A stretch of DNA of 64,000 bases, taken from the NCBI GenBank assembly GCA_019694655.1, contig JAIBBN010000003.1, positions 1-64,000 of the forward strand, written 5' to 3'. Numbering within the stretch: the stretch's first letter is position 1; each line of letters starts with the position of its first letter. Below the pieces are notes generated by a model. That model worked only from the letters and a program-made list of their open reading frames with translations. It was not told the origin of the DNA and did no database searches. Position numbers and translations under genes: made by a program. Source of the stretch: Leptospirales bacterium (GTDB taxonomy: Bacteria; Spirochaetota; Leptospiria; Leptospirales; Leptonemataceae). Below, in pieces: positions 8,024-52,767 of this stretch.

Positions 8024-9325
8024 TCAGGGATCGCGGGCCGCATAAACAATGACGCTTCCGTCGCGGCCGCGCAGGTTTTGTGCGCCAAGCATTTCAAAGC
8101 GACTCTGCAACGCCGGCTCCAGTTCGCTGAAAACTTCTCCAGAAAGCAAGAGGTCGCGCCCCAGATCCTTGCACAGACTCTGCAGTCGGCTGGCAACATT
8201 GACCGTATCGCCGAGTACAGTGTACTCCAGTCGCTCCGGCACGCCGACGTTGCCCACAATGGCCGGGCCAAAATGCAGGCCGACGCCCTGCCGCAACAGC
8301 GGCAATCCGCGCGCCGCGCGACTGGCATTCAACTCCGGAAGCGCATCGCGCATGGCCAGTGCGGCCCGCGCCGCACGCCGCGTCTCGTCGCCCTGCGGCC
8401 TTGGCGCGCCAAAGGTGGCCAGCATGCCGTCGCCCAGAAATTTATCCAGCACGCCGCCATGCTGAAATACAATGGCAACCATACGCTGGTGGTATTCACG
8501 CAGCCAGCTGGCAACCTCTTCAGGCGCCGCCGACTCGCTGAGCGCCGTGAAACCGCGCAGGTCGGTAAAGAGGGCGACGATATTCTGTCGCCGTGCGTTG
8601 CCGCCAAGCGGGTCCTCGGCCTGACGCAGCAGTTCATCCTGGACGCCGGGAGAGAAATAGCGCGATAGCAGCATCGCTTGAACTTCCTGGGAGACTGCAC
8701 GGCGCAGACTGCGCGATACGCGATTGGCATTCCAGGTCAGCAGGGCGCCGGCGGCGCACATGGTTCCCACACAGCTGATCATGAATTCCAGGCTGATTGT
8801 CGGACCGGTAATATGGCTCACAAAATCAGAAGAAAAAACAGTGCGCGGGTCCAGCGCGGCATAACCAAATACAATGGCATACTGCAGCACCGCACCCAGC
8901 GTCATCAAGGCCGGGTACAGCGTTCGCCCGGCCAGTCCATGACCGATGATCAAGAGCAGCGCAAAGACCATGGTGTTGGGATGCTTGACCATATAGGCCG
9001 GCAGCACGGCCTCGCCGCCAACAGATTGGTACCAGACAAAGGGCAGGGCGTTCAGAAAGAGGATATCGGTGAAGAGCCCCAGGTAGCCAACCGTCGCCAG
9101 CGATCGACGCCGGGCCAGCAGCCAGAGAAAAATAGGCGTTTCCAGCAGGATGGCCGTCGAGATGGATCCGGTTACAAACTTTTCCCACAGCGATTTGCCG
9201 ATGAAGATAGTCGAAACCATTGTGATCGATACATAGACAAAGCGCAACAGCAGCATCACGCGCAGCGCCGCGACCTCCCGATCGATCAAGATTTCTTCGC
9301 TGCGTTTGAATCTGACGACGTCCAT
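8024..9325 (-). CDS. Membrane-anchored class III adenylate/guanylate cyclase
   Basis: This 433-residue protein has six hydrophobic helices (about residues 22-205), a linker helix and a class III cyclase domain (about 240-430). The metal-binding aspartates lie in FTDLRGFTAL and in DKFLGDGMLATFG, and the base-recognition region is EYTVLGDTVNVASRLQ. It should make cAMP (or cGMP) in the cytoplasm, which fits the two stand-alone cNMP-binding proteins near 18 kb. The ATG at 9325 gives a start just before the first helix. A much longer upstream frame has no membrane or domain signal and was rejected. The gene is divergent from the nitroreductase gene. Confidence 0.9.
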   Translation of the reverse strand: MDVVRFKRSEEILIDREVAALRVMLLLRFVYVSITMVSTIFIGKSLWEKFVTGSISTAILLETPIFLWLLARRRSLATVGYLGLFTDILFLNALPFVWYQSVGGEAVLPAYMVKHPNTMVFALLLIIGHGLAGRTLYPALMTLGAVLQYAIVFGYAALDPRTVFSSDFVSHITGPTISLEFMISCVGTMCAAGALLTWNANRVSRSLRRAVSQEVQAMLLSRYFSPGVQDELLRQAEDPLGGNARRQNIVALFTDLRGFTALSESAAPEEVASWLREYHQRMVAIVFQHGGVLDKFLGDGMLATFGAPRPQGDETRRAARAALAMRDALPELNASRAARGLPLLRQGVGLHFGPAIVGNVGVPERLEYTVLGDTVNVASRLQSLCKDLGRDLLLSGEVFSELEPALQSRFEMLGAQNLRGRDGSVIVYAARDP

Positions 9326-36983: not shown

Positions 36984-38249
36984 TCATGTATAGCAGATAC
37001 CGGTTGCGAAGCAAAGTCCGACCAAGAACCAGAAATTGTCAGGCTGTGTTGCGATGACATCGTCGATTTGCTCCTTGGGCGCCTCATCAAAGGAGCCGCC
37101 CGGAGCGGGCGGATTCAAAGCTTCATAGTCGAGAATACTGATCGGGGCGCTGTAGGGCGTGTCCCAGTTGTGGTCGGCCATCCATTTTCCAAGATCATGA
37201 CCCCAGATCATGTATCCTTTGTAGCCAGGATGGGCGGGGTCGCGGTACAGCGACCACGCGCCTGTGTAACATCCGCCGGCAGCGCAGTCCAGCGGCGAAA
37301 CAAAGCGCGGATACATGTCGAGAAAGTGAATGCCTTCTTCGACGGCCATCGCCCTCTCGTTTTGCCAGTTGGCAAAGATCATCAGGCCTGGCAGCGTAGC
37401 CCATGAATTGTCTTTGGAAAGAAAAGTCTGGTAGGCGCAAAACCAGGCGAGGATGAAGTTTGTGTTTGTGCAGCGATCGGCCTCGGCAAACGAGAAGATC
37501 TGCAAAAAAAGATTACCGATCCACTGTAGCGGCGCGCCAAGCAGACTTTGCAGCGCGAGTTCGACCTTGTGAAATTCGGATACAAAGGTATACGGGTCAT
37601 TCAGAGCCTCGCCCAGCGGCGGATCGCAGACGTTCCAGAAGAAGGGATCGCCGTGGAAGCAGGGCTTGGGCGGGCCAGAGATCGGGCCGCGCCCGACCGT
37701 CGGGAAGTTTCCCATCCAGAGCAGATTGTCGCCGGGATTGGCAACGCCGCGGTGCCTCAGCATCAGCTTGAGCAGTCGCACTACCTTGCGCTGATTCTGA
37801 TTTACATGCTGCACGCTGACTTGGAATCGCCAGGGCATCCAATAGACGACGACCGAGTTGTAGATCACATCATTGCCGCCAATTTCCACGGCATAGCGGG
37901 TGGCGGTCGTGCATTTCAACTCCCTGGCGCAGGCCAGGATATATTCGTAGAGCCCCTTGGTAGTCATTGCCGAAACGGCCAGATTCTGCACATTCCAGTT
38001 GCGATTGGCGCCAAGTTTCAGATAGGGCAGCCAGCCATCGGGGAATTCTCCGTATCCGGGAATTGTGATCAGGTCCTGGCGACTGTCGCCAAAGAAGGTG
38101 ACGCTGGTGCCGGCGTTGTAGTTTTGACCGTTGGAGAATTGGATGTTATCAGGGCGGGGCCAGCGGAAATGCTGACTGTATACCGGGCCTGGCATGAGCA
38201 GAAACGCAATGCCAACCAGCGTTGCGGTCAATGCTGTGAAATGCTTCAT
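36984..38249 (-). CDS. Secreted SGNH/GDSL hydrolase, cassette 1 'S' gene
   Basis: This 421-residue protein has a signal peptide (about residues 1-25, cleaved near VYS-QH). The SGNH blocks are visible: block I FFGDSRQD with Ser56, block III EIGGNDVIYN with Gly125/Asn126, and block V RDPAHPGYKG with Asp337/His340. It is therefore a likely esterase or lipase of the cell surface. The C-terminus ends in a hydrophobic stretch with two Cys (LVGLCFATGICYT), similar to the other two S proteins at 46-50 kb. It begins 11 bases after lipoprotein B1. The substrate is unknown; carbohydrate esters or lipids are typical for the family. Confidence 0.78.
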   Translation of the reverse strand: MKHFTALTATLVGIAFLLMPGPVYSQHFRWPRPDNIQFSNGQNYNAGTSVTFFGDSRQDLITIPGYGEFPDGWLPYLKLGANRNWNVQNLAVSAMTTKGLYEYILACARELKCTTATRYAVEIGGNDVIYNSVVVYWMPWRFQVSVQHVNQNQRKVVRLLKLMLRHRGVANPGDNLLWMGNFPTVGRGPISGPPKPCFHGDPFFWNVCDPPLGEALNDPYTFVSEFHKVELALQSLLGAPLQWIGNLFLQIFSFAEADRCTNTNFILAWFCAYQTFLSKDNSWATLPGLMIFANWQNERAMAVEEGIHFLDMYPRFVSPLDCAAGGCYTGAWSLYRDPAHPGYKGYMIWGHDLGKWMADHNWDTPYSAPISILDYEALNPPAPGGSFDEAPKEQIDDVIATQPDNFWFLVGLCFATGICYT

Positions 38250-38260
38250 TTGAGTTCACC

Positions 38261-38755
38261 TCAGTTGAATTGAACTGTCAAGGTACCCGGTCCGCTCTTT
38301 GCCTCAAAATAGTGGGCGGCGTTATTACCGACGCTGCAGCCGGCCGGGCCGCTGATACTTTCCGGGACGCCAGGACCGCCCGAATCAGCAACCGTAGACC
38401 CGGGGGAGAAGCCGGTGCAACTTTTCAATTGAATGTATGCGTCTATTCCTGCACTGGGTGTAACAGTGAAACTCCAGGGATTGGCGGAGCAGCCAATCCC
38501 AAAGATTGGAGACAAAGTGCCGCCCCCCGGGCTCAAACTGGTGGTAGCGCTGTCTCCGGGTGAATAATAACGGACATCGGGCAAATCGCACGGAATATAT
38601 TCGCGATAGATGCCAAAGAAGATAAAGCCACGGAGCAGGTTGTCGCTGGCCCGTTTTGTTCCGAAATCGTACGGACCGTGGTCATCGTGAGTGCAGGCGC
38701 CAGCGCTGAGTAATAGCAGCAACAATGCGCACAAGTATTTAATCTGCGCCTTCAT
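38261..38755 (-). CDS. Lipoprotein B1 (cassette 1)
   Basis: This 164-residue lipoprotein has the lipobox LSAGAC at about residues 16-21. The mature part is beta-rich with SPGDSATTSLSPGGG, NPWSFTVTPSAGI and an end GPGTLTVQFN, suggestive of a single beta-sandwich. No known domain is recognised. Its start overlaps lipoprotein A1 by 4 bases and it is followed 11 bases later by the SGNH hydrolase. A stretch of 114 bases (38588-38701) is identical to the copy in B2 (41714-41827). Three further, more distant B proteins are at 47.9-51 kb. Confidence 0.72.
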   Translation of the reverse strand: MKAQIKYLCALLLLLLSAGACTHDDHGPYDFGTKRASDNLLRGFIFFGIYREYIPCDLPDVRYYSPGDSATTSLSPGGGTLSPIFGIGCSANPWSFTVTPSAGIDAYIQLKSCTGFSPGSTVADSGGPGVPESISGPAGCSVGNNAAHYFEAKSGPGTLTVQFN

Positions 38756-39444
38756 TCGATGCGATGCACGCCGCGACGGCGCAGCTCCTCATTGACTTTT
38801 GTCCGGTAGGCCAGCAGGTTTTCAATGCTGAGTTCGAAAATCTCCTCGGGTATGCCATACTCCGGATCGTTGTTCAAGCGACTGGTCTCGGCAATCACCA
38901 GTGCGCTGGCAAGGTAGCGGCGCAGCGCTTTCAATTCGTCGATGCTCATTGCCGGCAGCGACTGCTCCATGGCCGCGCCAAATTCAGCAGCAGCCGCGCT
39001 TTCCGATTGCACAAGCGCTTCGACGTCCAGCGGCGTTTCCTCGCCAGCGCTACCGCGATCCCAGTCAGCGCTGACCGTGGCCTCGATTTCGTCGCTGGTC
39101 AGGGCCTGATAGGCAAGATTTTGGCGAGTTCGCTGCGACTGCTCTTGCCAGGCTTCTGCAGTTTGCAGCCCGTAGAATCCGAACTGTACGACTGCCTCCT
39201 CCGCTGCGTGCTGTTCCTCGGAACTCATCGAATCAAGATTGTCGGGCGCCGATTCCAGCGGCGCTGGCGGCAAGTAGGGAATCCAGAGACGCCTGCCGCT
39301 GGTCGGATAGGCAGGAAATGATTCCCCATTCTTGTTCGGTTCGATCCCCTGATCAACAATCCCGATGCAGCCGGCCGCGGACGCAATCAAGGCAACAATG
39401 GAAACCGCAATCCAGTAAAGCCGGGGGGGGGGAGCATAGCCCAT
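38752..39444 (-). CDS. Lipoprotein A1 (cassette 1), with 5' poly-C tract
   Basis: This 230-residue lipoprotein has the lipobox ASAAGC near residue 25. The mature part is acidic and helical. Its C-terminus (SIENLLAYRTKVNEELRRRG) is shared with A2 and, more loosely, with A3 at 51 kb. No known domain is recognised. Codons 5-8 contain a C10 tract on the coding strand (39423-39432), so slippage would change the frame before the signal peptide. The ATG at 39444 has no clear Shine-Dalgarno. It is the first gene of an A-B-S unit, with a 4-base overlap to B1. Confidence 0.72.
   Translation of the reverse strand: MGYAPPPRLYWIAVSIVALIASAAGCIGIVDQGIEPNKNGESFPAYPTSGRRLWIPYLPPAPLESAPDNLDSMSSEEQHAAEEAVVQFGFYGLQTAEAWQEQSQRTRQNLAYQALTSDEIEATVSADWDRGSAGEETPLDVEALVQSESAAAAEFGAAMEQSLPAMSIDELKALRRYLASALVIAETSRLNNDPEYGIPEEIFELSIENLLAYRTKVNEELRRRGVHRIE
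39423..39432 (-). repeat. Poly-C tract (C10) inside lipoprotein A1
   Basis: Ten consecutive G on the plus strand (C on the coding strand) encode the PPP run at codons 5-8 of A1. Such tracts are classic sites of slipped-strand mispairing. The equivalent tract in A2 is C12. Confidence 0.85.
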
Positions 39445-39474
39445 TGTGAAATAGGCGTCTTTAGCAGTTCAATC
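39445..39474 (-). promoter_or_regulatory. Conserved leader block upstream of lipoprotein A1
   Basis: These 30 bases directly before the A1 ATG match 28 of 30 bases before the A2 ATG (42394-42423), then the similarity stops. Read on the minus strand, the block has a TTGAAC hexamer and an A/T-rich stretch before the ATG. It probably holds the promoter or translation-control signal of these cassettes. I could not place a convincing -10 at normal spacing. Confidence 0.45.
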
Positions 39475-39650
39475 GTTTTTTGGTTCTGGATGGCGGCGGA
39501 TGTACGTCTTTTGCGAACGAGCCGGAAGGAGCGTCGGCCGGCGGATTGCAACTCTTCCAGATTGGAGCCGCCCGATGCAGGCAGAGGCCGGGAACATTCC
39601 TACCGTCATCGCTTTTCTCCGATTATCAAGCATCGGTCGGTCGGGGACAA

Positions 39651-39677
39651 TGAACCTGCCCCCAATGAGTTGCCAAA
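39651..39677 (+). repeat. Left terminal inverted repeat of the IS3 element
   Basis: The first 13 bases (TGAACCTGCCCCC) are a perfect inverse match to 40868-40880. The remaining 14 bases match with a few differences. Confidence 0.85.
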
Positions 39678-39714
39678 TGCAGGGCGGTCTCCAGAATGAA
39701 AAGGAGATCGAGAA

Positions 39715-40002
39715 ATGGGCAGGAAACGCAAGAGCAAATTTGACGAGGATTTCAAGCGCAACGCCGTGAAGCTGGCCCTTGAGGGTAAGAAAACCCAGGC
39801 CGAGATCGCGGCTGACCTGGGCATCAGCGGCTATACTTTGAGCCGCTGGAAAGATGAGCTACTCTCCGAGGGGGCTCTGGACAATGCCGGTCTGAGTCCG
39901 GATGCCGAAGTCCGGCGGCTGCGCCAGCAGCTCGCGATCGTAAGCGAAGAGCGCGACATATTAAAAAAGGCCATCGCTGTCTTCTCGCGCCTGCGTCGGT
40001 GA
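39715..40002 (+). CDS. IS3-family transposase OrfA
   Basis: This 95-residue protein has an N-terminal helix-turn-helix (DEDFKRNAVKLALEGKKTQ, then AEIAADLGISGYTLSRWK) that binds the element ends. A leucine-zipper-like helix (about residues 62-90, VRRLRQQLAIVSEERDILKK) follows for dimerisation. It has a Shine-Dalgarno AAGGAG 11 bases before ATG 39715. The A6G slippery run near its end lets ribosomes shift to the -1 frame and make an OrfAB fusion transposase. Its stop overlaps the orfB frame by 4 bases. Confidence 0.93.
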   Translation: MGRKRKSKFDEDFKRNAVKLALEGKKTQAEIAADLGISGYTLSRWKDELLSEGALDNAGLSPDAEVRRLRQQLAIVSEERDILKKAIAVFSRLRR

Positions 40003-40850
40003 AATTCGCTTTCATGTTAAAACATGCCGGCGAGTTCTCGATGGAGAAGATGGCAAGAATGCTGGGTGTCAGCCGTGAGGGATTTCGAAAGCACCTGTGC
40101 GCGAAAGGACGGGCTCCGAATCCGGAGCTGGTAGAATTGGTTCAGCAAGTCCATCGTAAAAGTCGGCGACGCTATGGAGCGCCAAAGATATGCGTGGAAA
40201 TCATGGAAATGGGAACTTTGGTGACACGTAAGACCGTGGCAAAAGTCATGACAATGCTCGAAATACGCGGCGTTTCGCGGCGAAAAACGAAGCCGCGAAC
40301 CACAGATTCGAACCATGACGGGCCGATCGCCCCAAACTTGCTGGGGCGAGTTTTCGACTGCATTGCTCCGAACACGGTGTGGGTCGCAGACATCAGCTAT
40401 CTGGCGACACGCAAAGGCTGGGTATATCTCTCGTTGGTCATCGATCTGTTCTCGCGACGCATCGTCGGTTGGACTGTCGCCGATTCCATGCATGCCGAAC
40501 ATACGGTCAGGGCGCTGGAGAAAGCGATCCAGGCGCGGCGTCCGCCGGCCGGGTTGACCTTTCACTCTGATCGCGGCTCGCAATACGCTTCAAAGGCAGT
40601 ACGCCGGGTTCTACAGCGCGAGAAAATGATGCAGAGCATGGCGCGCAAAGGCGACTGCTGGGACAATGCGGTCGCCGAATCAACGATTGGATTGATCAAG
40701 GCAGAGACTACTGAGCGGATCTTTGACAATCTTGAGGATGCCGAAAAAGAGCTGTTCGAGTATATCGAGGTATTCTACAATCGGCAGCGAAGGCATTCAG
40801 CGGCCGGCAACATGTCGCCGGCCACATACGAAAAACGAATGGCCGCTTGA
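39999..40850 (+). CDS. IS3-family transposase OrfB (DDE integrase)
   Basis: This 283-residue protein carries an HTH_21-like linker (about residues 45-100) and an rve integrase core. The DDE triad can be assigned: Asp in VWVADISYL, Asp in TFHSDRGSQY and Glu in DNAVAESTIG. It ends with the normal family tail YNRQRRHSAAGNMSP. The frame is open back to the slippery heptamer at 39963, so the active form is likely the OrfAB fusion. The GTG at 39999 could allow some independent translation. No internal damage is visible. Confidence 0.93.
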   Translation: MKFAFMLKHAGEFSMEKMARMLGVSREGFRKHLCAKGRAPNPELVELVQQVHRKSRRRYGAPKICVEIMEMGTLVTRKTVAKVMTMLEIRGVSRRKTKPRTTDSNHDGPIAPNLLGRVFDCIAPNTVWVADISYLATRKGWVYLSLVIDLFSRRIVGWTVADSMHAEHTVRALEKAIQARRPPAGLTFHSDRGSQYASKAVRRVLQREKMMQSMARKGDCWDNAVAESTIGLIKAETTERIFDNLEDAEKELFEYIEVFYNRQRRHSAAGNMSPATYEKRMAA

Positions 40851-40853
40851 TCG

Positions 40854-40880
40854 TTTGCCAACTTAACGGGGGCAGGTTCA
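40854..40880 (-). repeat. Right terminal inverted repeat of the IS3 element
   Basis: The reverse complement begins TGAACCTGCCCCC and matches the left end. The repeat begins 4 bases after the orfB stop. Confidence 0.85.
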
Positions 40881-40913
40881 CAAGGATGACTATTGGGCAA
40901 GAATACAGCTTGT

Positions 40914-41201
40914 TTACGGTAAGCTTGCCGCGCCTTTCTCTTTTACCGGAAGCTTCTGTCCTAACATGTCCTCATAGTAGAGTACTTGAGTATCCAGGTC
41001 CATGCCATTTGGCCATGCAACACAACCACTGACCGGATCGACACTGGCCCGCGCAAACTCGGCCGGGTTTGCGAGAATTTGAAACACACCCTCTGCTAGC
41101 AGTTTGCTGGCATCAAAGCAGAAACTCTTCCCATCATCAAACGTGATATCGAGGCGGAAGCTCTCAAGCGGACGGACAGATTGAACACGATGCAAGTTCA
41201 T
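40914..41201 (-). CDS. DUF2442-family protein
   Basis: This 95-residue protein has the DUF2442 pattern: HRVQSVRPLESFRLDITFDD at the start, a central FDASKLLAEGVFQIL and the ending AWPNGMDLDTQVLYYE. The family is usually paired with DUF4160 as a small two-gene module, often treated as a possible toxin-antitoxin pair. Here the DUF4160 partner just upstream is only a C-terminal fragment. This gene is probably an orphan left after a deletion. It lies 33 bases from the IS right end. Confidence 0.82.
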   Translation of the reverse strand: MNLHRVQSVRPLESFRLDITFDDGKSFCFDASKLLAEGVFQILANPAEFARASVDPVSGCVAWPNGMDLDTQVLYYEDMLGQKLPVKEKGAASLP

Positions 41202-41206
41202 GGGAC

Positions 41207-41341
41207 TCAGGGCAAAGGTTCAATTTGAGGCAGCGGCTTCATTTCGACCGCGAGCTGCCAAACAGTCTGCAGATCAACTTTATGAAGGTCAATCCATTCT
41301 TTCATGAGCCTGGAGGCCCTCTGCTGCCAGTAAGAATAGAG
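41207..41341 (-). pseudogene. DUF4160 C-terminal remnant
   Basis: The minus-strand frame encodes RASRLMKEWIDLHKVDLQ and so on to a stop 5 bases before the DUF2442 start. The RLxxEWIxLHxxxLxxxW pattern is the C-terminal helix of DUF4160 proteins. The N-terminal half is absent: an in-frame stop lies just upstream (41342-41344), and from about 41310 onwards the DNA instead belongs to the start of the cassette-2 S gene. It is a deletion remnant. Confidence 0.6.
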
Positions 41342-41378
41342 CTATAACAATAAGAGAAACCTTCGCATACCGATCCAT
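41289..41378 (-). pseudogene. Truncated cassette-2 'S' gene: signal peptide only
   Basis: This starts at ATG 41378, 11 bases after the B2 stop, with AGGAG at good spacing. The frame encodes a perfect signal peptide (MDRYAKVSLIVIALFLLAAEGLQA) and then stops after HERMD. In cassettes 1, 3 and 4 the gene in this position is a secreted SGNH hydrolase. Here the mature enzyme is gone and the sequence runs into the DUF4160 fragment. A deletion that fused the two is the simplest reading. The junction is near 41305-41320. Confidence 0.6.
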
Positions 41379-41389
41379 TTCTTGCTCTC

Positions 41390-41881
41390 CTAATTGAACT
41401 GAATCAACAGATTCCCCGGCCCGCTCTTTGCTTCAAAGAAGTGCGCCGCATTATTGCCGACATTGCAGCCGGCAGGTCCACTGATGCTTTCCGAAACGCC
41501 GGGGCCGCCGGTGTCGGCTACAATCACAGGAATTCCGCCGCTGCAGCTCACGCGATCAATTACGGCATCGATTCCTGCACTGGGCGTGACTGTAAATGTC
41601 CACGGATTCGTTGAGCAGCCAATTGCATAAATCGGAGACAAAGCCCCGCCTCCCGGGCTCAATCCTGTGGTAGCGCTATCTCCCGGTGAAAAATATCGGA
41701 CATAGGGCGAAGTGCACGGAATATATTCGCGATAGATGCCAAAGAAGATAAAGCCACGGAGCAGGTTGTCGCTGGCCCGTTTTGTTCCGAAATCGTACGG
41801 ACCGTGGTCATCGTGAGTGCAGGCGCCGGCGTTGAGCACAAGCAGCAACAGCGCGCTTGGATAATTGATTGGCGTCTTCAT
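41390..41881 (-). CDS. Lipoprotein B2 (cassette 2)
   Basis: This 163-residue lipoprotein has the lipobox LNAGAC and is a close paralogue of B1. Shared features are the block after the Cys (THDDHGPYDFGTKRASDNLL), SPGDSATT, TVTPSAGIDA and the C-terminal GPGNLLIQFN. The central loop differs (VIDRVSCSGGIPVI versus YIQLKSCTGFSPGS), which points to variation in one surface loop. Its start overlaps A2 by 4 bases. Its stop TAG is part of the ribosome-binding site of the truncated S gene. Confidence 0.72.
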   Translation of the reverse strand: MKTPINYPSALLLLVLNAGACTHDDHGPYDFGTKRASDNLLRGFIFFGIYREYIPCTSPYVRYFSPGDSATTGLSPGGGALSPIYAIGCSTNPWTFTVTPSAGIDAVIDRVSCSGGIPVIVADTGGPGVSESISGPAGCNVGNNAAHFFEAKSGPGNLLIQFN

Positions 41882-42393
41882 TCGATTCGATGCACGCCGC
41901 GACGGCGCAGCTCCTCATTGACTTTTGTCCGGTAGGCCAGCAGATTCTCAATGCTGAGTTCGAAAATCTCCTCGGGTATGCCATACTCCGGATCGTTGTT
42001 CAAGCGACTGGTCTCGGCAATCACCAGTGCGCTGGCAAGGTAGCGGCGCAGCGCCTTCAATTCGTCGATATTCATCGCCGGCAGCGACTGCTCCTGCCAT
42101 CCTTCTGCCGTTTGCAGCCCGCAAAAACCAAATTGGGCGATGGCTTCTTCCGCAGCTTGCTGCTCATCGGCAGTCATTGCATCGAGATTGTCCGGCGCAG
42201 ACTGCGGCGGCGTCGGCGGCAGGTACGGAATCCAGAGACGCCGGCTACTGGTTGGATAGGCTGGAAAGGATTCCTCATTCTTATTTGGCTCGATCCCCTG
42301 GTCGACAATCCCGATACAGCCAGAGAGCAATACGCTCCAGGCTACAATCGACGCCGTAAACAGGACTCTCCGGGGGGGGGGGGCATAGCCCAT
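41878..42393 (-). CDS. Lipoprotein A2 (cassette 2), with 5' poly-C tract and internal deletion
   Basis: This 171-residue lipoprotein has the lipobox VLLSGC. It is a paralogue of A1 with an identical C-terminal 50 or so residues. It lacks 59 residues present in A1: A1 reads WQEQS...(59 residues)...MEQSLPAM, A2 reads WQEQSLPAM. The missing part is flanked by EQS/EQS, so deletion between short direct repeats is likely. Codons 4-8 hold a C12 tract (42372-42383). It is the first gene of the A2-B2 unit and is divergent from HicAB. Confidence 0.72.
   Translation of the reverse strand: MGYAPPPRRVLFTASIVAWSVLLSGCIGIVDQGIEPNKNEESFPAYPTSSRRLWIPYLPPTPPQSAPDNLDAMTADEQQAAEEAIAQFGFCGLQTAEGWQEQSLPAMNIDELKALRRYLASALVIAETSRLNNDPEYGIPEEIFELSIENLLAYRTKVNEELRRRGVHRIE
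42372..42383 (-). repeat. Poly-C tract (C12) inside lipoprotein A2
   Basis: Twelve consecutive G on the plus strand lie at codons 4-8 of A2, at the same place as the C10 tract of A1. A second ATG lies 7 bases after the first, in a different frame and also before the tract. Confidence 0.88.
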
Positions 42394-42423
42394 TGTAAAA
42401 TAGCCGTCTTTAGCAGTTCAATC
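42394..42423 (-). promoter_or_regulatory. Conserved leader block upstream of lipoprotein A2
   Basis: This is the partner of the block before A1 (39445-39474), with 28 of 30 bases identical. The conservation ends sharply at its upstream side, which marks the limit of the duplicated segment. Confidence 0.45.
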
Positions 42424-42556
42424 GGTCTTTGTTATGATCGCACGCAGTCCGTTGCGAAGCGCCGAGCCTCTGGTCCGCGCCAGTCTGAATTTGAAGCTCA
42501 ATGCTGTCTTTCATGCCGCAGAGGACGAGTACCGGCGCGATCGCAGGAATCGATTG

Positions 42557-46360: not shown

Positions 46361-47881
46361 TTATTTACAAATACCGAAAAAGAAGCAAAGCACCAGGAGT
46401 CCCAGATCCTCGCCAAATGGGTTTTCCGGTAATTCAGACCAGTCGCGCCAGGTATTTTTTGTAAATTCGAAGTCTGACAGGTATACATCGTATTCCAGCG
46501 ATGCCATCTTCTGCGCGATTACCTGAGCCCAGAGCGCTGCGCCCGCGTTATTGGGATGGATACTGTCTTGGTAGAGTTCATTTCTGCCGGCCCAATCCAG
46601 GCCTGGATGCCGAAAGTAGGGCTCCATCGAAACATATTCTACCGTGCGTCGGTTCGTCCCGGGAATCGGAACACCCTGCACGATGTAGTTCTCCTGCATT
46701 CTGCGGCCGAGCATCACGATCATAGCCGAAACCGCCTTATCCTTGTTGGGCAGGGCGAACATCACAGCCCAGCCGGTTTCGTAGCGCGGCGTTTCCTGGA
46801 TCAAATTCCAGAAGTCCATCCAGGGCATGCCCGGTTTTAGCCGGTCAAAGTAGCCATTGAGGCCTCTTTCATTCCGGTGCTGGAAGCGTGCTGCCGGATC
46901 CTCAAAGAGCCCGGTGAGGCTTGAGTTCATGCCCAGGAATCGACCCAGGGAGAGATCAACGCCCCGGCAGAAGCGCATCAGATCGGAGTTATATTGGACA
47001 AAAGGAATGATTCCGCGGTTGAAGCCCGTATAGCCTAGACGATCGTAGAGCCAGCCACGATATTTGTTGATTGCATCAAAAAATGGTTTTGCCGCGGCGC
47101 TGATAACCTTTTGAAGCGCTCCGCCTACCGAGCAAACAAGCCCCGTGCTGGCATTCAACACCTCGACGTCTTCGGTATATGCTCCGCAGAACTGTTCGAT
47201 TAGATTTGGATCATCGAGCGAAAGTTCGTCAACCACGTTGGACGCCCTGTACGGATGATAGCCGACCAGCAGCACCGTGCGTCCATTCTGCTGCAGCAAA
47301 GCAATCATGCGTCCAATGTTGTTCAACGACGCGTTGACCTGATAGTGGGCATAGTGTGGATTGATGTAGCCGGGGATCGACCGGCCATAGCGGAATTCGT
47401 TGCCGCCAATTTCCATGATCACCCGTCCCGGCGTCGAATCGCGAAAGCGCTGTACGGTTTGGGGCGTGGCGCCCGTACCCAGGCAGCCCTCCACCCACTG
47501 TCGCTGGTTGAAGGCGACATTGCCGCTCACGGATGTATTTAAAATGCGCCAGGCGCCGCCGGTGCGCGGCGGCGGATTGGTCATGAAGTTTTCCCAGCGT
47601 TTCGTTACGATAGCGCCCGTACCGCTGCCGACTCGAAACACCGGACCATAGGGCGCCGCGCCCAATAGTGCGCCGACCGAGTCGCCAATCCACATGGCGT
47701 GAAAGGACTCCGGAGGACCGATATGCATCTCTCTGAAATCGCAGCGCCAGGGGCCATCGCCCGCCCAAACGTTGGCTGCGTCCGCCTGCACCTCCCCGCC
47801 ATCGGGATTTGGCGGTGTTTGTGCGGCGAGGCTCGCCGCTCCAAGCAGGTAGAAAGCGATTGCAAATGTGGCGGTTCTCAT
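46361..47881 (-). CDS. Secreted SGNH/GDSL hydrolase, cassette 4 'S' gene
   Basis: This 506-residue protein has a signal peptide (about residues 1-20, ASLAA-QT). The SGNH blocks are AMWIGDSVGAL (Ser68), IMEIGGNEFRYG (block III) and YQDSIHPNNAG (block V Asp/His). It is highly similar to the hydrolase at 48.9-50.4 kb over its whole length, including NPHYAHYQ, IGRMIALLQQNGRTVLLVGYHPY and the tail LCFFFGICK. The ATG at 47881 has GAGG 6 bases upstream. It follows lipoprotein B5 by 7 bases. It is a probable surface or periplasmic esterase of unknown substrate. Confidence 0.8.
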   Translation of the reverse strand: MRTATFAIAFYLLGAASLAAQTPPNPDGGEVQADAANVWAGDGPWRCDFREMHIGPPESFHAMWIGDSVGALLGAAPYGPVFRVGSGTGAIVTKRWENFMTNPPPRTGGAWRILNTSVSGNVAFNQRQWVEGCLGTGATPQTVQRFRDSTPGRVIMEIGGNEFRYGRSIPGYINPHYAHYQVNASLNNIGRMIALLQQNGRTVLLVGYHPYRASNVVDELSLDDPNLIEQFCGAYTEDVEVLNASTGLVCSVGGALQKVISAAAKPFFDAINKYRGWLYDRLGYTGFNRGIIPFVQYNSDLMRFCRGVDLSLGRFLGMNSSLTGLFEDPAARFQHRNERGLNGYFDRLKPGMPWMDFWNLIQETPRYETGWAVMFALPNKDKAVSAMIVMLGRRMQENYIVQGVPIPGTNRRTVEYVSMEPYFRHPGLDWAGRNELYQDSIHPNNAGAALWAQVIAQKMASLEYDVYLSDFEFTKNTWRDWSELPENPFGEDLGLLVLCFFFGICK

Positions 47882-48908: not shown

Positions 48909-50423
48909 CTATTTGCAATATCCAAAGAAAAAGCATGCGATCAGCAGCGCCAGATCCTCAGCATAGGGGTCGATCGGCGCTTCGGACCAGTCGCGCCAGT
49001 TGTTTTGAGTAAAATCAAAATCGTTGAGATAAATGTCATAGTCCAATTGGCGCATCTTTGCTGACAGGACATCGGCCCAGAGCTGAGCGCCGGCCGCATT
49101 TGGATGAACATCATCATGATAGAGCTCATTGCGGCCGGCCCATTCTACATACGGGTGCTGGAAGTAGGGCTCCATGGAAACATATTCGACCGTCCGTCTC
49201 GAGGTGCCTGGGATCGGGACGCCCTGCGCCACATAGTTTTCCTGGATTCGCCGGCCAAGCATCACGATCATTGCTGATACAGCCTTGCTCTTGTTGGGCA
49301 GGGCGTACATCACAGCCCAGCCGGTTTCATAGCGCGGAGTTTCCTGAATCAGATTCCAGAAGTCCATCCAGGGCATGCCGTGTTTGAGCCGGTCAAAGTA
49401 GCCGTTCAGGCCTTTCTCATTGCGCTGTTGAAATCTTGCTGCGGGATCCTCAAAGAGCCCCGTCAGGCTGGTATTCATGCCCAGCAGACGCCCCAGGGAG
49501 TGGTCTACGCCGCGGAAAAAACGCATGAAATCGGAGTTGTATTGAACAAAGGGAAACAGACCGCGTTCAAAACCGCGATAGCCGATGGTATCATAGAGCC
49601 AGCGGCGCTGCTTGTTGATCAAATCAAAAATTGGATTCGCTATTGCGCCCACAGCATCGAGGAGCGTTCCATTAATAGCGCAAACAAGGCCGCCGGCGGC
49701 GCTGATAACTTCAAGACCCGGCGTATTAACGCCACAGAATGGCTCCAGCAGGCTGGTTTTGGGCGCGATGTCTCCAACCACGGTCGACGCAGAATATGGA
49801 TGATAGCCAACGAGCAGCACAGTACGCCCGTTTTGCTGCAAGAGGGCTATCATTCGGCCAATATGGTTGAGGATGGCGTTCAATTGATAGTGAGCATAAT
49901 GCGGATTGATGCCAACCAGAGGGACGCCGTCGCGAATGTCATTTCCGCCAATCTCCATAATGACCCGGTAAGGCGCCGTTCGATCGAAGTTGCTGCGCGC
50001 TTGAGCCGGAGCATTGTCGCCAAGGCAGTCCTCGATGAATTTCCGCTGAATGGAGGCGTGCTGGCCGGGGATGGCCGTATTCAGGATGCGCCAGACGGGT
50101 CCGGTGCGCGGCGGCGGATTGGTCATAAAATTTTCCCAGCGCTTGTTGACAATGGCGCCCGTACCGCTGCCGACACGCCACGCAAGTTGTGAAGCCGGCT
50201 CCACGCCATGCAAGGCGCCCACCGAGTCGCCAATCCACATGGCGTGAAAGGAATCGCGCGGACCAAGGTGCATGTTGTCAAAATTGCAGCGTAAAGCATT
50301 TTCTGCGCCATAGACTTGTGCAGCGTCGAGCGGTAGATAACCGCCTTCAGGCAGCGGCGCGGCAGCCGCCGCTGCGCTGAAGGCGCAGACAGCGAAGGCA
50401 CAAAGTGCGATGCGTGGATTCAT
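48909..50423 (-). CDS. Secreted SGNH/GDSL hydrolase, cassette 3 'S' gene
   Basis: This 504-residue protein has a signal peptide (about residues 1-22). The SGNH blocks are AMWIGDSVGAL (Ser67), VIMEIGGNDIRDG and YHDDVHPNAAG. It is a close paralogue of the 46.4-47.9 kb hydrolase (long identical runs such as TGLFEDPAARFQ and YFDRLKxGMPWMDFWNLIQE). The C-terminus is a hydrophobic Cys-containing tail (LALLIACFFFGYCK). It follows lipoprotein B3 by 36 bases. The two large S proteins are about 80 residues longer than S1, with the extra part between blocks III and V. Confidence 0.8.
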   Translation of the reverse strand: MNPRIALCAFAVCAFSAAAAAAPLPEGGYLPLDAAQVYGAENALRCNFDNMHLGPRDSFHAMWIGDSVGALHGVEPASQLAWRVGSGTGAIVNKRWENFMTNPPPRTGPVWRILNTAIPGQHASIQRKFIEDCLGDNAPAQARSNFDRTAPYRVIMEIGGNDIRDGVPLVGINPHYAHYQLNAILNHIGRMIALLQQNGRTVLLVGYHPYSASTVVGDIAPKTSLLEPFCGVNTPGLEVISAAGGLVCAINGTLLDAVGAIANPIFDLINKQRRWLYDTIGYRGFERGLFPFVQYNSDFMRFFRGVDHSLGRLLGMNTSLTGLFEDPAARFQQRNEKGLNGYFDRLKHGMPWMDFWNLIQETPRYETGWAVMYALPNKSKAVSAMIVMLGRRIQENYVAQGVPIPGTSRRTVEYVSMEPYFQHPYVEWAGRNELYHDDVHPNAAGAQLWADVLSAKMRQLDYDIYLNDFDFTQNNWRDWSEAPIDPYAEDLALLIACFFFGYCK

Positions 50424-50459: not shown

Positions 50460-50984
50460 TCAATTGATCTGGATCTGAAAAGCCGCTGGCGGTGTACGTT
50501 TCTGGAAGACCAGAAAGCAAACCGTGGCCGGAGCTCCGCTGCTAATCGCCAGGCTGGGATTTGGGCCGTCATTCGGCCCATAGGAATCGCGTATCGTAGT
50601 GGTGTTGTATATAGCTTCAATATCGCCGACGGCGCTGGCCGCGGTGGTCATGTTCACTGTGTAGGGCGGCGCCGCTGTGGTTTGCAGATAAACTACTGCG
50701 AGGTCCGCATTCGATCCTAGGTGCAACTGCAGCTTGTCTCCCGCCTGCGTCGAATCCCAGAGCACGCCGCCAGGAACTTGAACGACGCGAGACGGCTCCC
50801 GGTCGCAGGGAGTAGTAATTGCATAGTATAACATGAACGCATACACCATGCGTATCGATTCATTTGATTCGTCCGTGGCCTTTGCTTGCGGACTTTGATC
50901 GCCCAGGCAGGCGCTCAAGTTTACAAGCCCAGTCCAGAGCAAGAGCGCTGTGGCATATCGCCCGCCGCGATGGACCCGGTTCAC
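50460..50984 (-). CDS. Lipoprotein B3 (cassette 3)
   Basis: This 174-residue lipoprotein has the lipobox NLSAC (about residues 22-26). The mature part contains GGVLWDSTQAGDKLQLHL, PPYTVNMTT, an internal VCFLV and the terminal FQIQIN. It shares this pattern with B4 and B5 and more loosely with B1 and B2. Its start overlaps A3 by 4 bases. No known domain is recognised. The repeated 'WDSxxxGxxL' and 'Y/FTVxMxT' strands suggest a beta-sandwich such as those of PPC-type domains. Confidence 0.7.
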   Translation of the reverse strand: MNRVHRGGRYATALLLWTGLVNLSACLGDQSPQAKATDESNESIRMVYAFMLYYAITTPCDREPSRVVQVPGGVLWDSTQAGDKLQLHLGSNADLAVVYLQTTAAPPYTVNMTTAASAVGDIEAIYNTTTIRDSYGPNDGPNPSLAISSGAPATVCFLVFQKRTPPAAFQIQIN

Positions 50985-51568
50985 GGATCGGCGCCCTGTA
51001 ACTCGCCGCGTCGCCGCAGCTCGTCGCTCACCTGGCGGTAGAGGGCGAGCATGTTCTCTGTCGACTTTTGCATTTGATCGGCGTCCAGGCCGTGGTCCGT
51101 AAAGCCCGGCATATCCGCGATCTCATGGGTCATGATGGCGCTGTTGGCGCACATATAGCGCACACGATAGAGAAAGGGCACGGGCAGCTTCGGTAGTTGT
51201 TTTGTTACATCGGCGATCAGTTCCTGTTGTAACGATTCAAAGGTCGTTCCGTCTTCCTGCCTGGCGTACTCCATTGTGCTCACCATATCAGCGGCCATCA
51301 TTTCCTGAAACTCCGGTTCGTAAAATCCCTCTGTATAGCGGTCGTACATAGCGTACTGAATCGCTTCCCTTTCTCCGGCGATCAAAGCGTACGGTCCCTC
51401 TGTCGGAAAGAGAGTGTCAACAAGCTGGATCGGGACGACATCGGGCGATGGACGCGTTGCCAGCAGCGCAAGTACTGTGGGCACAAGCGCGCTGTCGTCG
51501 GGATTTTCCATTGGTATGCATCCCACAAATAGAAGCGCACTGAGCGCAGCAGCTCTCCAGCGATTCAT
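50981..51568 (-). CDS. Lipoprotein A3 (cassette 3)
   Basis: This 195-residue lipoprotein has the lipobox LLFVGC (about residues 12-17). The mature part is acidic and largely helical. The C-terminal ALYRQVSDELRRRG is clearly related to the AYRTKVNEELRRRG end of A1 and A2, so it is the A member of this cassette. It lacks the poly-C tract. The start overlaps the PilZ gene stop by 4 bases and its own stop overlaps B3, giving a chain of coupled genes. Confidence 0.7.
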   Translation of the reverse strand: MNRWRAAALSALLFVGCIPMENPDDSALVPTVLALLATRPSPDVVPIQLVDTLFPTEGPYALIAGEREAIQYAMYDRYTEGFYEPEFQEMMAADMVSTMEYARQEDGTTFESLQQELIADVTKQLPKLPVPFLYRVRYMCANSAIMTHEIADMPGFTDHGLDADQMQKSTENMLALYRQVSDELRRRGELQGADP

Positions 51569-52614
51569 CGCGACCTTTCTCCTTGCTTGATGAGTTTCCG
51601 AATCACATGTTTATCTACAGTACCGGGAGCAATAAAGCGGATGCCAAAGCCCGGCGGTTTCTGGAACAGCCCTTGCGGATTGCTCCACATGACCTGGCCA
51701 CGGAGCGCGGCGGAGTTCTGGTCAGCCGAAAGAACGACGGCCAACTCGGTCTCTGGCGCCGGCGGGGCGGCCATAGCCAGATAGGCGCCGTCGCGGGAAA
51801 CATTCAGCATATTTGCCGGTTGCTTTCTGCCATCGACTTCAACCGCGCATTGCAGCGAGATAACATAGCGTTTCGGGAAAACAAGCTTCAAGAATTGGCG
51901 AATCGCACGGCGGGTGGCCGCGCTTGTATAAAAACGCAGGCCAAGGCCGTCGGGGTCGATGCGCGCAACTTCGGCGCTGATATTCAGTGTGAGGCCATGA
52001 TGAAGTTGCAACTCTACGCGCTGCTTCTGAGCGATGGCATACTGCTCAGCGGCATTTGCTGGCAGATTGACGTAACAGCCGAGCACGCTCAGGTCGCGAG
52101 TTGTCGCTCGCTGATCGCCAATCAATAGTCCGGTCTGAATCAGTTGTCTTGGCCGGCGACGGAAACCGCGCCAGCCAGCGTTCAGGTAGGGCGCCGAAAT
52201 GTCGCGCTGCAAGAAATAGCCAAGCAGCAGCAGGGCCGCGGCCGAACGAACGATTTCACCGCTGCGTGCTACCGTCGGCGCCGCCAGAAAAAGGGCAAGA
52301 CTGTAGCCCATCAAGACTCCAGCGTGAATCAGGAAGGCAAAATATCCCCATCGCCTGACACGCAATAGACAGAAGGCGACAACCGGCGCAGTAAGAAACA
52401 GGACCAGCGCCAGCAGGGAATAGGCGGCGAAGAGCGACCTCCAGTTTGCGCTGAGGGCGGCCAAACTGTAGAGGAGGTTGGCGACCGGCAGCAGCAGATA
52501 GACAATTCCGGCCAGTTTCAGGCCCGGCGGCGTTTTGATTCGAGCTGCAGAGCTTTCGTCTGCCTGCGGGCCCAGCAGCGGCCGGCGTTGAAAGAGGGTA
52601 AGGGAAACGGCCAT
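51565..52614 (-). CDS. Membrane protein with two PilZ-like domains
   Basis: This 349-residue protein has four N-terminal hydrophobic helices (about residues 32-135) and two cytoplasmic PilZ-like domains (about 152-240 and 245-345). The second has RYVISLQCAVEV and NVSRDGAYLAM (the D/NxSxxG motif); the first has RDLSVLGCYV. PilZ domains bind cyclic di-GMP and control surface or export functions. The RxxxR arginines are only partly evident, so binding is uncertain. It heads the longest lipoprotein/SGNH unit with ATGA coupling to A3. A GGAGG lies 9 bases before ATG 52614, and a poly-A tract lies just upstream of that. Confidence 0.78.
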   Translation of the reverse strand: MAVSLTLFQRRPLLGPQADESSAARIKTPPGLKLAGIVYLLLPVANLLYSLAALSANWRSLFAAYSLLALVLFLTAPVVAFCLLRVRRWGYFAFLIHAGVLMGYSLALFLAAPTVARSGEIVRSAAALLLLGYFLQRDISAPYLNAGWRGFRRRPRQLIQTGLLIGDQRATTRDLSVLGCYVNLPANAAEQYAIAQKQRVELQLHHGLTLNISAEVARIDPDGLGLRFYTSAATRRAIRQFLKLVFPKRYVISLQCAVEVDGRKQPANMLNVSRDGAYLAMAAPPAPETELAVVLSADQNSAALRGQVMWSNPQGLFQKPPGFGIRFIAPGTVDKHVIRKLIKQGERSR

Positions 52615-52635: not shown

Positions 52636-52648
52636 TTTTTTTTTTTTT
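52636..52648 (-). repeat. Poly-A tract (A13) upstream of the PilZ gene
   Basis: Thirteen consecutive T on the plus strand (A on the transcribed orientation) lie 21 bases before the PilZ start and just before its ribosome-binding site. Length changes here could alter promoter spacing or leader structure. Confidence 0.8.
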
Positions 52649-52767
52649 CAAGCAAATTCTTTGGTTTTGGAGTTTCAGGCCAGCGGCGAGTCTGTCTCAT
52701 CCTGCCGCATTCCGGTTTATGCCCGCCTCCCGCCTCCCGCCTCCTGCGCCCGGCGTCGGCGGCACGT

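Follow-up and report, generated by a model that had tools for sequence, protein, structure and literature searches.

Poly-C tracts at the 5' ends of two paralogous lipoprotein operons of a Leptospirales bacterium as candidate phase-variation switches

The A-B-S locus and its C tracts

The window, that is, the whole 64,000-nucleotide stretch of DNA analysed here, carries three paralogues of a lipoprotein gene, A, each followed by a B gene (Table 1). The A stop and the B start overlap in ATGA. S1 begins 11 nt after B1, and no S gene lies behind B2. The original prediction held that loss of A would, through coupling, probably also reduce B and S; the overlap would allow this for B in both copies, whereas for S the prediction can apply to copy 1 only, because S is missing behind B2. 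An IS3-family element, which has terminal TGAACCTGCCCCC inverted repeats and a 3-bp CAA duplication as read from the sequence, parts the A1/B1 pair from A2/B2.

Table 1. Coordinates of the A operons and associated elements in the window
Feature	Position	Strand	Description	Basis
A1	38752..39444	-	230-aa lipoprotein, distant relative of NF047452 (LA_3478 family)	ORF
C10 tract of A1	39423..39432	-	nt 13-22 of A1	
A1 overlapping starts ATGGGCTATG	39435..39444	-	ATG1 39442-39444, ATG2 39435-39437, different frames	
A1 leader, 40 bp, conserved	39445..39484	-	88% identity with A2 leader	
B1	38261..38755	-	164-aa secreted/lipoprotein-like protein; start overlaps A1 stop	
S1	36984..38249	-	secreted SGNH/GDSL hydrolase, relative of NF047594 (LIC10707 family)	
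A2	41878..42393	-	171-aa A1 paralogue; internal deletion relative to A1	
C12 tract of A2	42372..42383	-	longest poly-C of the genome	
A2 leader, conserved	42394..42433	-	holds promoter-like TTGAAC-18-TACAAT overlapping ATG1	
B2	41390..41881	-	B1 paralogue; start overlaps A2 stop	
IS3-family element	39651..40880	+	orfA 39715-40002, orfB 39999-40850	Pfam HTH_Tnp_1, rve
A13 tract	52636..52648	-	21 nt before ATG of first gene of A3 operon	
PilZ-domain membrane protein	51565..52614	-	first gene of A3 operon	
A3	50981..51568	-	third paralogue of A, without its own tract; overlaps the end of the PilZ gene at its start	
B3	50460..50984	-	start overlaps A3 stop	
S3	48909..50423	-	SGNH hydrolase-like	

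On the minus strand, the 5' end of A1 reads ATGGGCTATGCT-C10-GG, with the tract as codons 5-8, while that of A2 reads ATGGGCTATG-C12-GG, with the tract as codons 4-8. Both runs thus follow closely on the ATG of paralogous lipoprotein genes, as predicted, and they encode the n-region of the lipoprotein signal peptide (MGYAPPPRLYWIAVSIVALIASAAGC and MGYAPPPRRVLFTASIVAWSVLLSGC). Measured from the G of GCT (A1) or GCC (A2) to the last C, the two copies are of equal length, the T of A1 being a C in A2.

In each gene a second start codon, ATG2, lies 7 nt downstream of ATG1, in another frame and ahead of the tract, a further point on which the prediction was right. A frame table indicates that, with the tract lengths as deposited, both genes have ATG1 in frame. 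Addition of one C (or loss of two) brings ATG2 into frame, and with two additional Cs neither ATG is in frame. Hence the arithmetic behind the proposed choice of start codon by tract length holds, although it yields three states (ATG1, ATG2 or neither) and not a simple ON/OFF pair. The products in frame with ATG1 and with ATG2 both have a plausible lipoprotein signal; the out-of-frame products are 13-37 aa long. The frame table also takes in four homologues; by it, these are simple repeats of the 5' coding region or promoter in which a change of one unit would alter frame or expression.

No clear Shine-Dalgarno sequence was found before ATG1 or ATG2 of either gene. A promoter scan returned a promoter-like match, TTGAAC-18-TACAAT, that overlaps ATG1 of A2. 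Its A1 counterpart, TTGAAC-18-CACAAT, is weaker and is absent from the scan output. Given this match, ATG2 of A2 could be a leaderless start. If the match were the real promoter, the message would start near ATG2 and the deposited state would be OFF.

The identity of A1 and A2 varies sharply along their length. It is 49% further upstream, rises to about 90% over the 40-bp leader, the double ATG and the tract, falls to 59% in the signal peptide directly beyond the tract, and is close to 100% in the 3' portion of A and the 5' portion of B. Such mosaicism between A1/B1 and A2/B2 looks like the outcome of gene conversion.

Gene order around the third paralogue is more elaborate. From 52614 down to 44620 on the minus strand, PilZ-A3-B3-S3 is followed by more B-like and S-like genes and by three small secreted proteins, two of which have counterparts in the A operon of a related genome, G024. 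A heptanucleotide array, (CCCGCCT)3, occupies 52722-52742, about 110 bp ahead of the start of the PilZ gene and upstream of A13.

Rarity of the repeats and counterparts in other genera

The rarity of the repeats was gauged by pattern searches of the 3.92-Mb genome. Poly-C runs of at least 9 occur at three sites, namely A2 (the longest), A1 and one intergenic tract; runs of at least 8 occur at 12. Eight C8 tracts lie outside the window; one of these is near the start of an ORF for a probable rRNA methyltransferase (codons 2-4). By these counts the tracts of A1 and A2 exceed the genome background, being longer or rarer, and A13 is the sole A-run of at least 12. The intergenic tract, a C10 at C3:208122-208131 (L010:1501-1510), precedes a DksA/TraR-like gene by about 60 bp; TTGCCG-17-TAATTT, read by eye, would place it in a promoter spacer.

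Because A1 and A2 are paralogous, their tracts amount to a single event in this genome, and the independent evidence comes from other genera. Homologues of A were sought in relatives, in the order and in the class, and were found in nine genera counting this one, plus weaker matches. Each genome compared is represented by a single assembly, in at least two cases a metagenome-assembled one, and the repeat lengths may be wrong. In four other genera a simple repeat lies 11-24 bp from the A start, in homologues that are 16-26% identical to A1. G004 carries ATGGCTTTGTAC-C8 at the A start, one of the eight C tracts of at least 8 in that genome, and G012 carries G10 about 14 nt before the likely A ATG, one of its three C10s. 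In G027, (TCGT)6 follows codon 5 of A, and (CGTT) arrays of at least five units occur nowhere else in 5.4 Mb; a second start codon ahead of the repeat was not seen in this homologue, where one ATG was examined. In G020, (AT)9 follows codon 8 and is one of two sites with at least nine AT units in 3.4 Mb.

Where A lies deeper in its operon, the repeat precedes the first gene instead. This is so for A13 at the A3 operon and for A15 in G024, which is located between a divergent gene and the A operon and is the only A-run of at least 12 in its genome. No sigma-70 promoter match was found around A13 or A15, and an account of the two tracts as parts of sigma-70 promoters was rejected on this ground. 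The remaining genera with an A homologue include three of the nine (G022, G025 and G026) with no comparable repeat. G022 does have a C10 inside an ORF resembling a metabolic enzyme, so that a long C tract by itself proves nothing.

Repeats were scored as notable at G/C of at least 8, A/T of at least 12, and at least 6 dinucleotide, 5 trinucleotide or 4 tetranucleotide units, along with longer units. All five notable repeats in 160,392 bases around the homologues are 11-57 bp away from an A-operon start, against an expected share of 2% (binomial p 4e-9), and the same rule places three of the five in the window near such a start (p 8e-6); these p-values are indicative only, since the repeat classes and the A/T threshold of at least 12 were set after the data had been seen and the relatives share ancestry. 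The tree of A has long branches and one well-supported fork, which means that the number of repeat origins is not countable from it. The repeat type nevertheless differs between genera, and one inherited tract cannot explain the repeats at the A start.

Both AT arrays of G020 lie in lipoprotein signal peptides. As deposited, each is out of frame and is followed by a long open frame. The second array, (AT)11 on G020:C2 (L112:4972-4993), belongs to a lipoprotein of about 950 aa and has more than 900 codons open behind it, which makes this gene a candidate second phase-variable surface gene of that genome. The S gene of G020 is also frameshifted, away from any repeat, and the operon may accordingly be decaying or mis-assembled there. 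In G012:C85 (L113:4605-4614), a C10 directly follows the lipobox cysteine of an ApbE-type-like lipoprotein at a contig end.

Probable slipped-strand switching and its alternatives

The C10 and C12 tracts are, very probably, slipped-strand phase-variation switches on the A-B-S operon. Comparison and position lend this reading strong support, and the sequences themselves show the tracts and how rare they are, the arithmetic of the frames, the order of the genes and the differing repeats at the same place in other genera. Replication slippage would alter a tract by one C and thereby shift the frame between the start codon or codons and the lipoprotein, giving a state with ATG1 in frame, one with ATG2 in frame and one with neither. 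When A translation is lost, B would be lowered by translational coupling and S1 by polarity. Switching of the probable surface lipoprotein/esterase set would then make cells individually different in surface chemistry. In this scheme tract lengths presumably vary in living cells, A is taken to be surface exposed and S to act as an esterase, and which of ATG1 and ATG2 starts translation is likewise a prediction.

The original proposal of phase variation gains from the repeats at the A start in the four other genera and from the A-tracts at operon heads. Different unstable repeats at the same spot in distant relatives of A suggest a conserved spirochaete switch. With somewhat less assurance, we lean towards a contingency locus common to the Leptospirales, in which the repeat slot is conserved while the repeat itself (C, G, A, AT or TCGT) has been replaced repeatedly, moving between the coding start and the upstream region, and which has here become a three-state switch with two starts.

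It might be argued that the tract acts in RNA, by polymerase slippage (reiterative transcription) or by start-site choice, with mixed messages in every cell and no heritable switch. The conserved leader of A1 and A2 fits this view, and TTGAAC-18-TACAAT would put the A2 tract at the transcript start and ATG2 near the 5' end. However, the corresponding match in A1 is the weaker one that the scan did not return, and RNA-level action explains neither the AT and TCGT arrays of the homologues, which are typical of DNA slippage, nor the position of A13 and A15 outside the coding region; we consider it quite unlikely. That the tracts are incidental, each a chance C run tolerated in the n-region and kept in recent or gene-converting copies, is very unlikely. 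Paralogy, with stretches of about 100% identity, does reduce A1 and A2 to one event, signal-peptide n-regions are permissive, and long C tracts are found elsewhere too; but chance accounts poorly for rare repeats of four types at the A start in four other genera, or for an identity between A1 and A2 that peaks on leader and tract with both flanks diverged. A need for a proline-rich n-region was also considered as the origin of the C tract and was discarded, since at that place homologues encode FVRSFVR or IYIYI. Assembly error or pseudogene decay at homopolymers would be in keeping with the reliance on single assemblies, some of them metagenome-assembled, and with the frameshifted S of G020. 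Most copies are nonetheless in frame as deposited, with full-length ORFs, and the repeats recur at one position across independent assemblies, making an artefact extremely unlikely.

Known systems and predicted products

The closest parallel to the proposed slipped-strand switching at A1 and A2 is lic2A of Haemophilus influenzae, in which, according to PMC3116884 (citing Dixon et al. 2007), a CAAT repeat is preceded by start codons in two frames. Here, too, the repeat lies near the 5' end of the gene, starts in two frames precede it and its length picks the frame. Unlike lic2A, an LOS biosynthetic gene, A1 and A2 head lipoprotein operons and carry a mononucleotide C repeat, and the sequences are unrelated. 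Phase-variable surface genes with poly-C/G tracts are described for Neisseria, Campylobacter, Helicobacter and Bordetella (for example PMC1891110 and PMC4965091), and these resemble A1 and A2 in having the homopolymer inside or near the 5' end. Such genomes contain many tracts, with 29 poly-G/C loci of seven or more given for C. jejuni NCTC11168 in PMC4965091, whereas the present genome has three C runs of at least 9 in 3.9 Mb, two of them on the A family.

Promoter tracts of poly-G or poly-A set expression of porA (PMC3639595) and nspA (PMC6389960) and offer a candidate model for A13, A15 and possibly G10. They differ from A13 and A15 in that no promoter element was located around the latter. 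According to PMC6389960, there is no evidence that nspA itself is phase variable.

In L. interrogans, the LIC10702-LIC10708 region is raised 6-76 fold in a perRA perRB mutant (PMC8638967). Like the A-B-S locus, this region, which includes the LA_3478 and LIC10707 families, groups lipoprotein and SGNH/GDSL hydrolase genes in one cluster, and from the family name we infer that A corresponds to one of its genes. That study reports PerRA/PerRB regulation and no phase variation, and A and S score below the NCBIfam cut-offs here. Indeed, A1 matches NF047452 with E=6e-21 and 75 bits against a cut-off of 400, and S1 matches NF047594 with E=2e-51 and 175 bits against 380; by that standard they are relatives, not orthologues. 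No NF047452 match above the cut-off was found among the relatives' genomes searched.

A literature search on phase variation in Leptospira, Leptospiraceae and spirochaetes, conducted largely outside subscription journals, found no report on the A locus and no paper on repeat-driven phase variation in Leptospira or its relatives. The slipped-strand mechanism class is known; its occurrence at this locus and in this lineage, and the change of repeat type at a fixed place, appear unreported. If correct, this would be a candidate first case of repeat-driven phase variation in Leptospira or its relatives, some of the lineages concerned being known only from metagenomes. Repeat turnover at a fixed position amounts to a natural experiment that would indicate selection for switching and not for one sequence. 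The locus also offers a reason why the lipoprotein/esterase cluster of Leptospira, which is strongly regulated and poorly understood, may be important on the cell surface, for instance in facing phages or predators.

The A-B-S products probably form a cell-surface lipoprotein/esterase set. The S1 translation contains the GDS, GGND and D-x-x-H (DPAH) blocks of the SGNH/GDSL superfamily and matches the SGNH fold. A PDB profile search gives GDSL esterases as the closest solved structures, and the best Foldseek matches are acylhydrolases and sialate O-acetylesterases (E about 2e-3, from a low-confidence model). The AlphaFold models are poor (pLDDT 55 for A1 and 54 for S1). S is SGNH esterase-like, and its predicted substrate is a glycan, perhaps an acetylated one. 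A contig scan with the S alignment returned two loci only, in G012 and G004.

Every full-length S protein has a hydrophobic stretch plus C-x3-G-x-C at its C-terminus (for example at 36984-37010, 46361-46390 and 48909-48940). Their C-termini include CFATGICYT, CFFFGICK, CLFTGKCW and CLTTGACG, the sole departure being CYILGCFK in the G020 copy. This ending looks like an undescribed C-terminal sorting or anchoring tag. In G024:C17 (L103:7207-7677, 8237-8683), in-frame chimeras with an N-terminal portion from S and a C-terminal end from A lie beside an intact S, which suggests recombination between cassettes of the A-B-S family. In G026:C92 (L106:4100-5356), an A domain is fused behind a matrixin-like HExxHxxGxxH metalloprotease domain.
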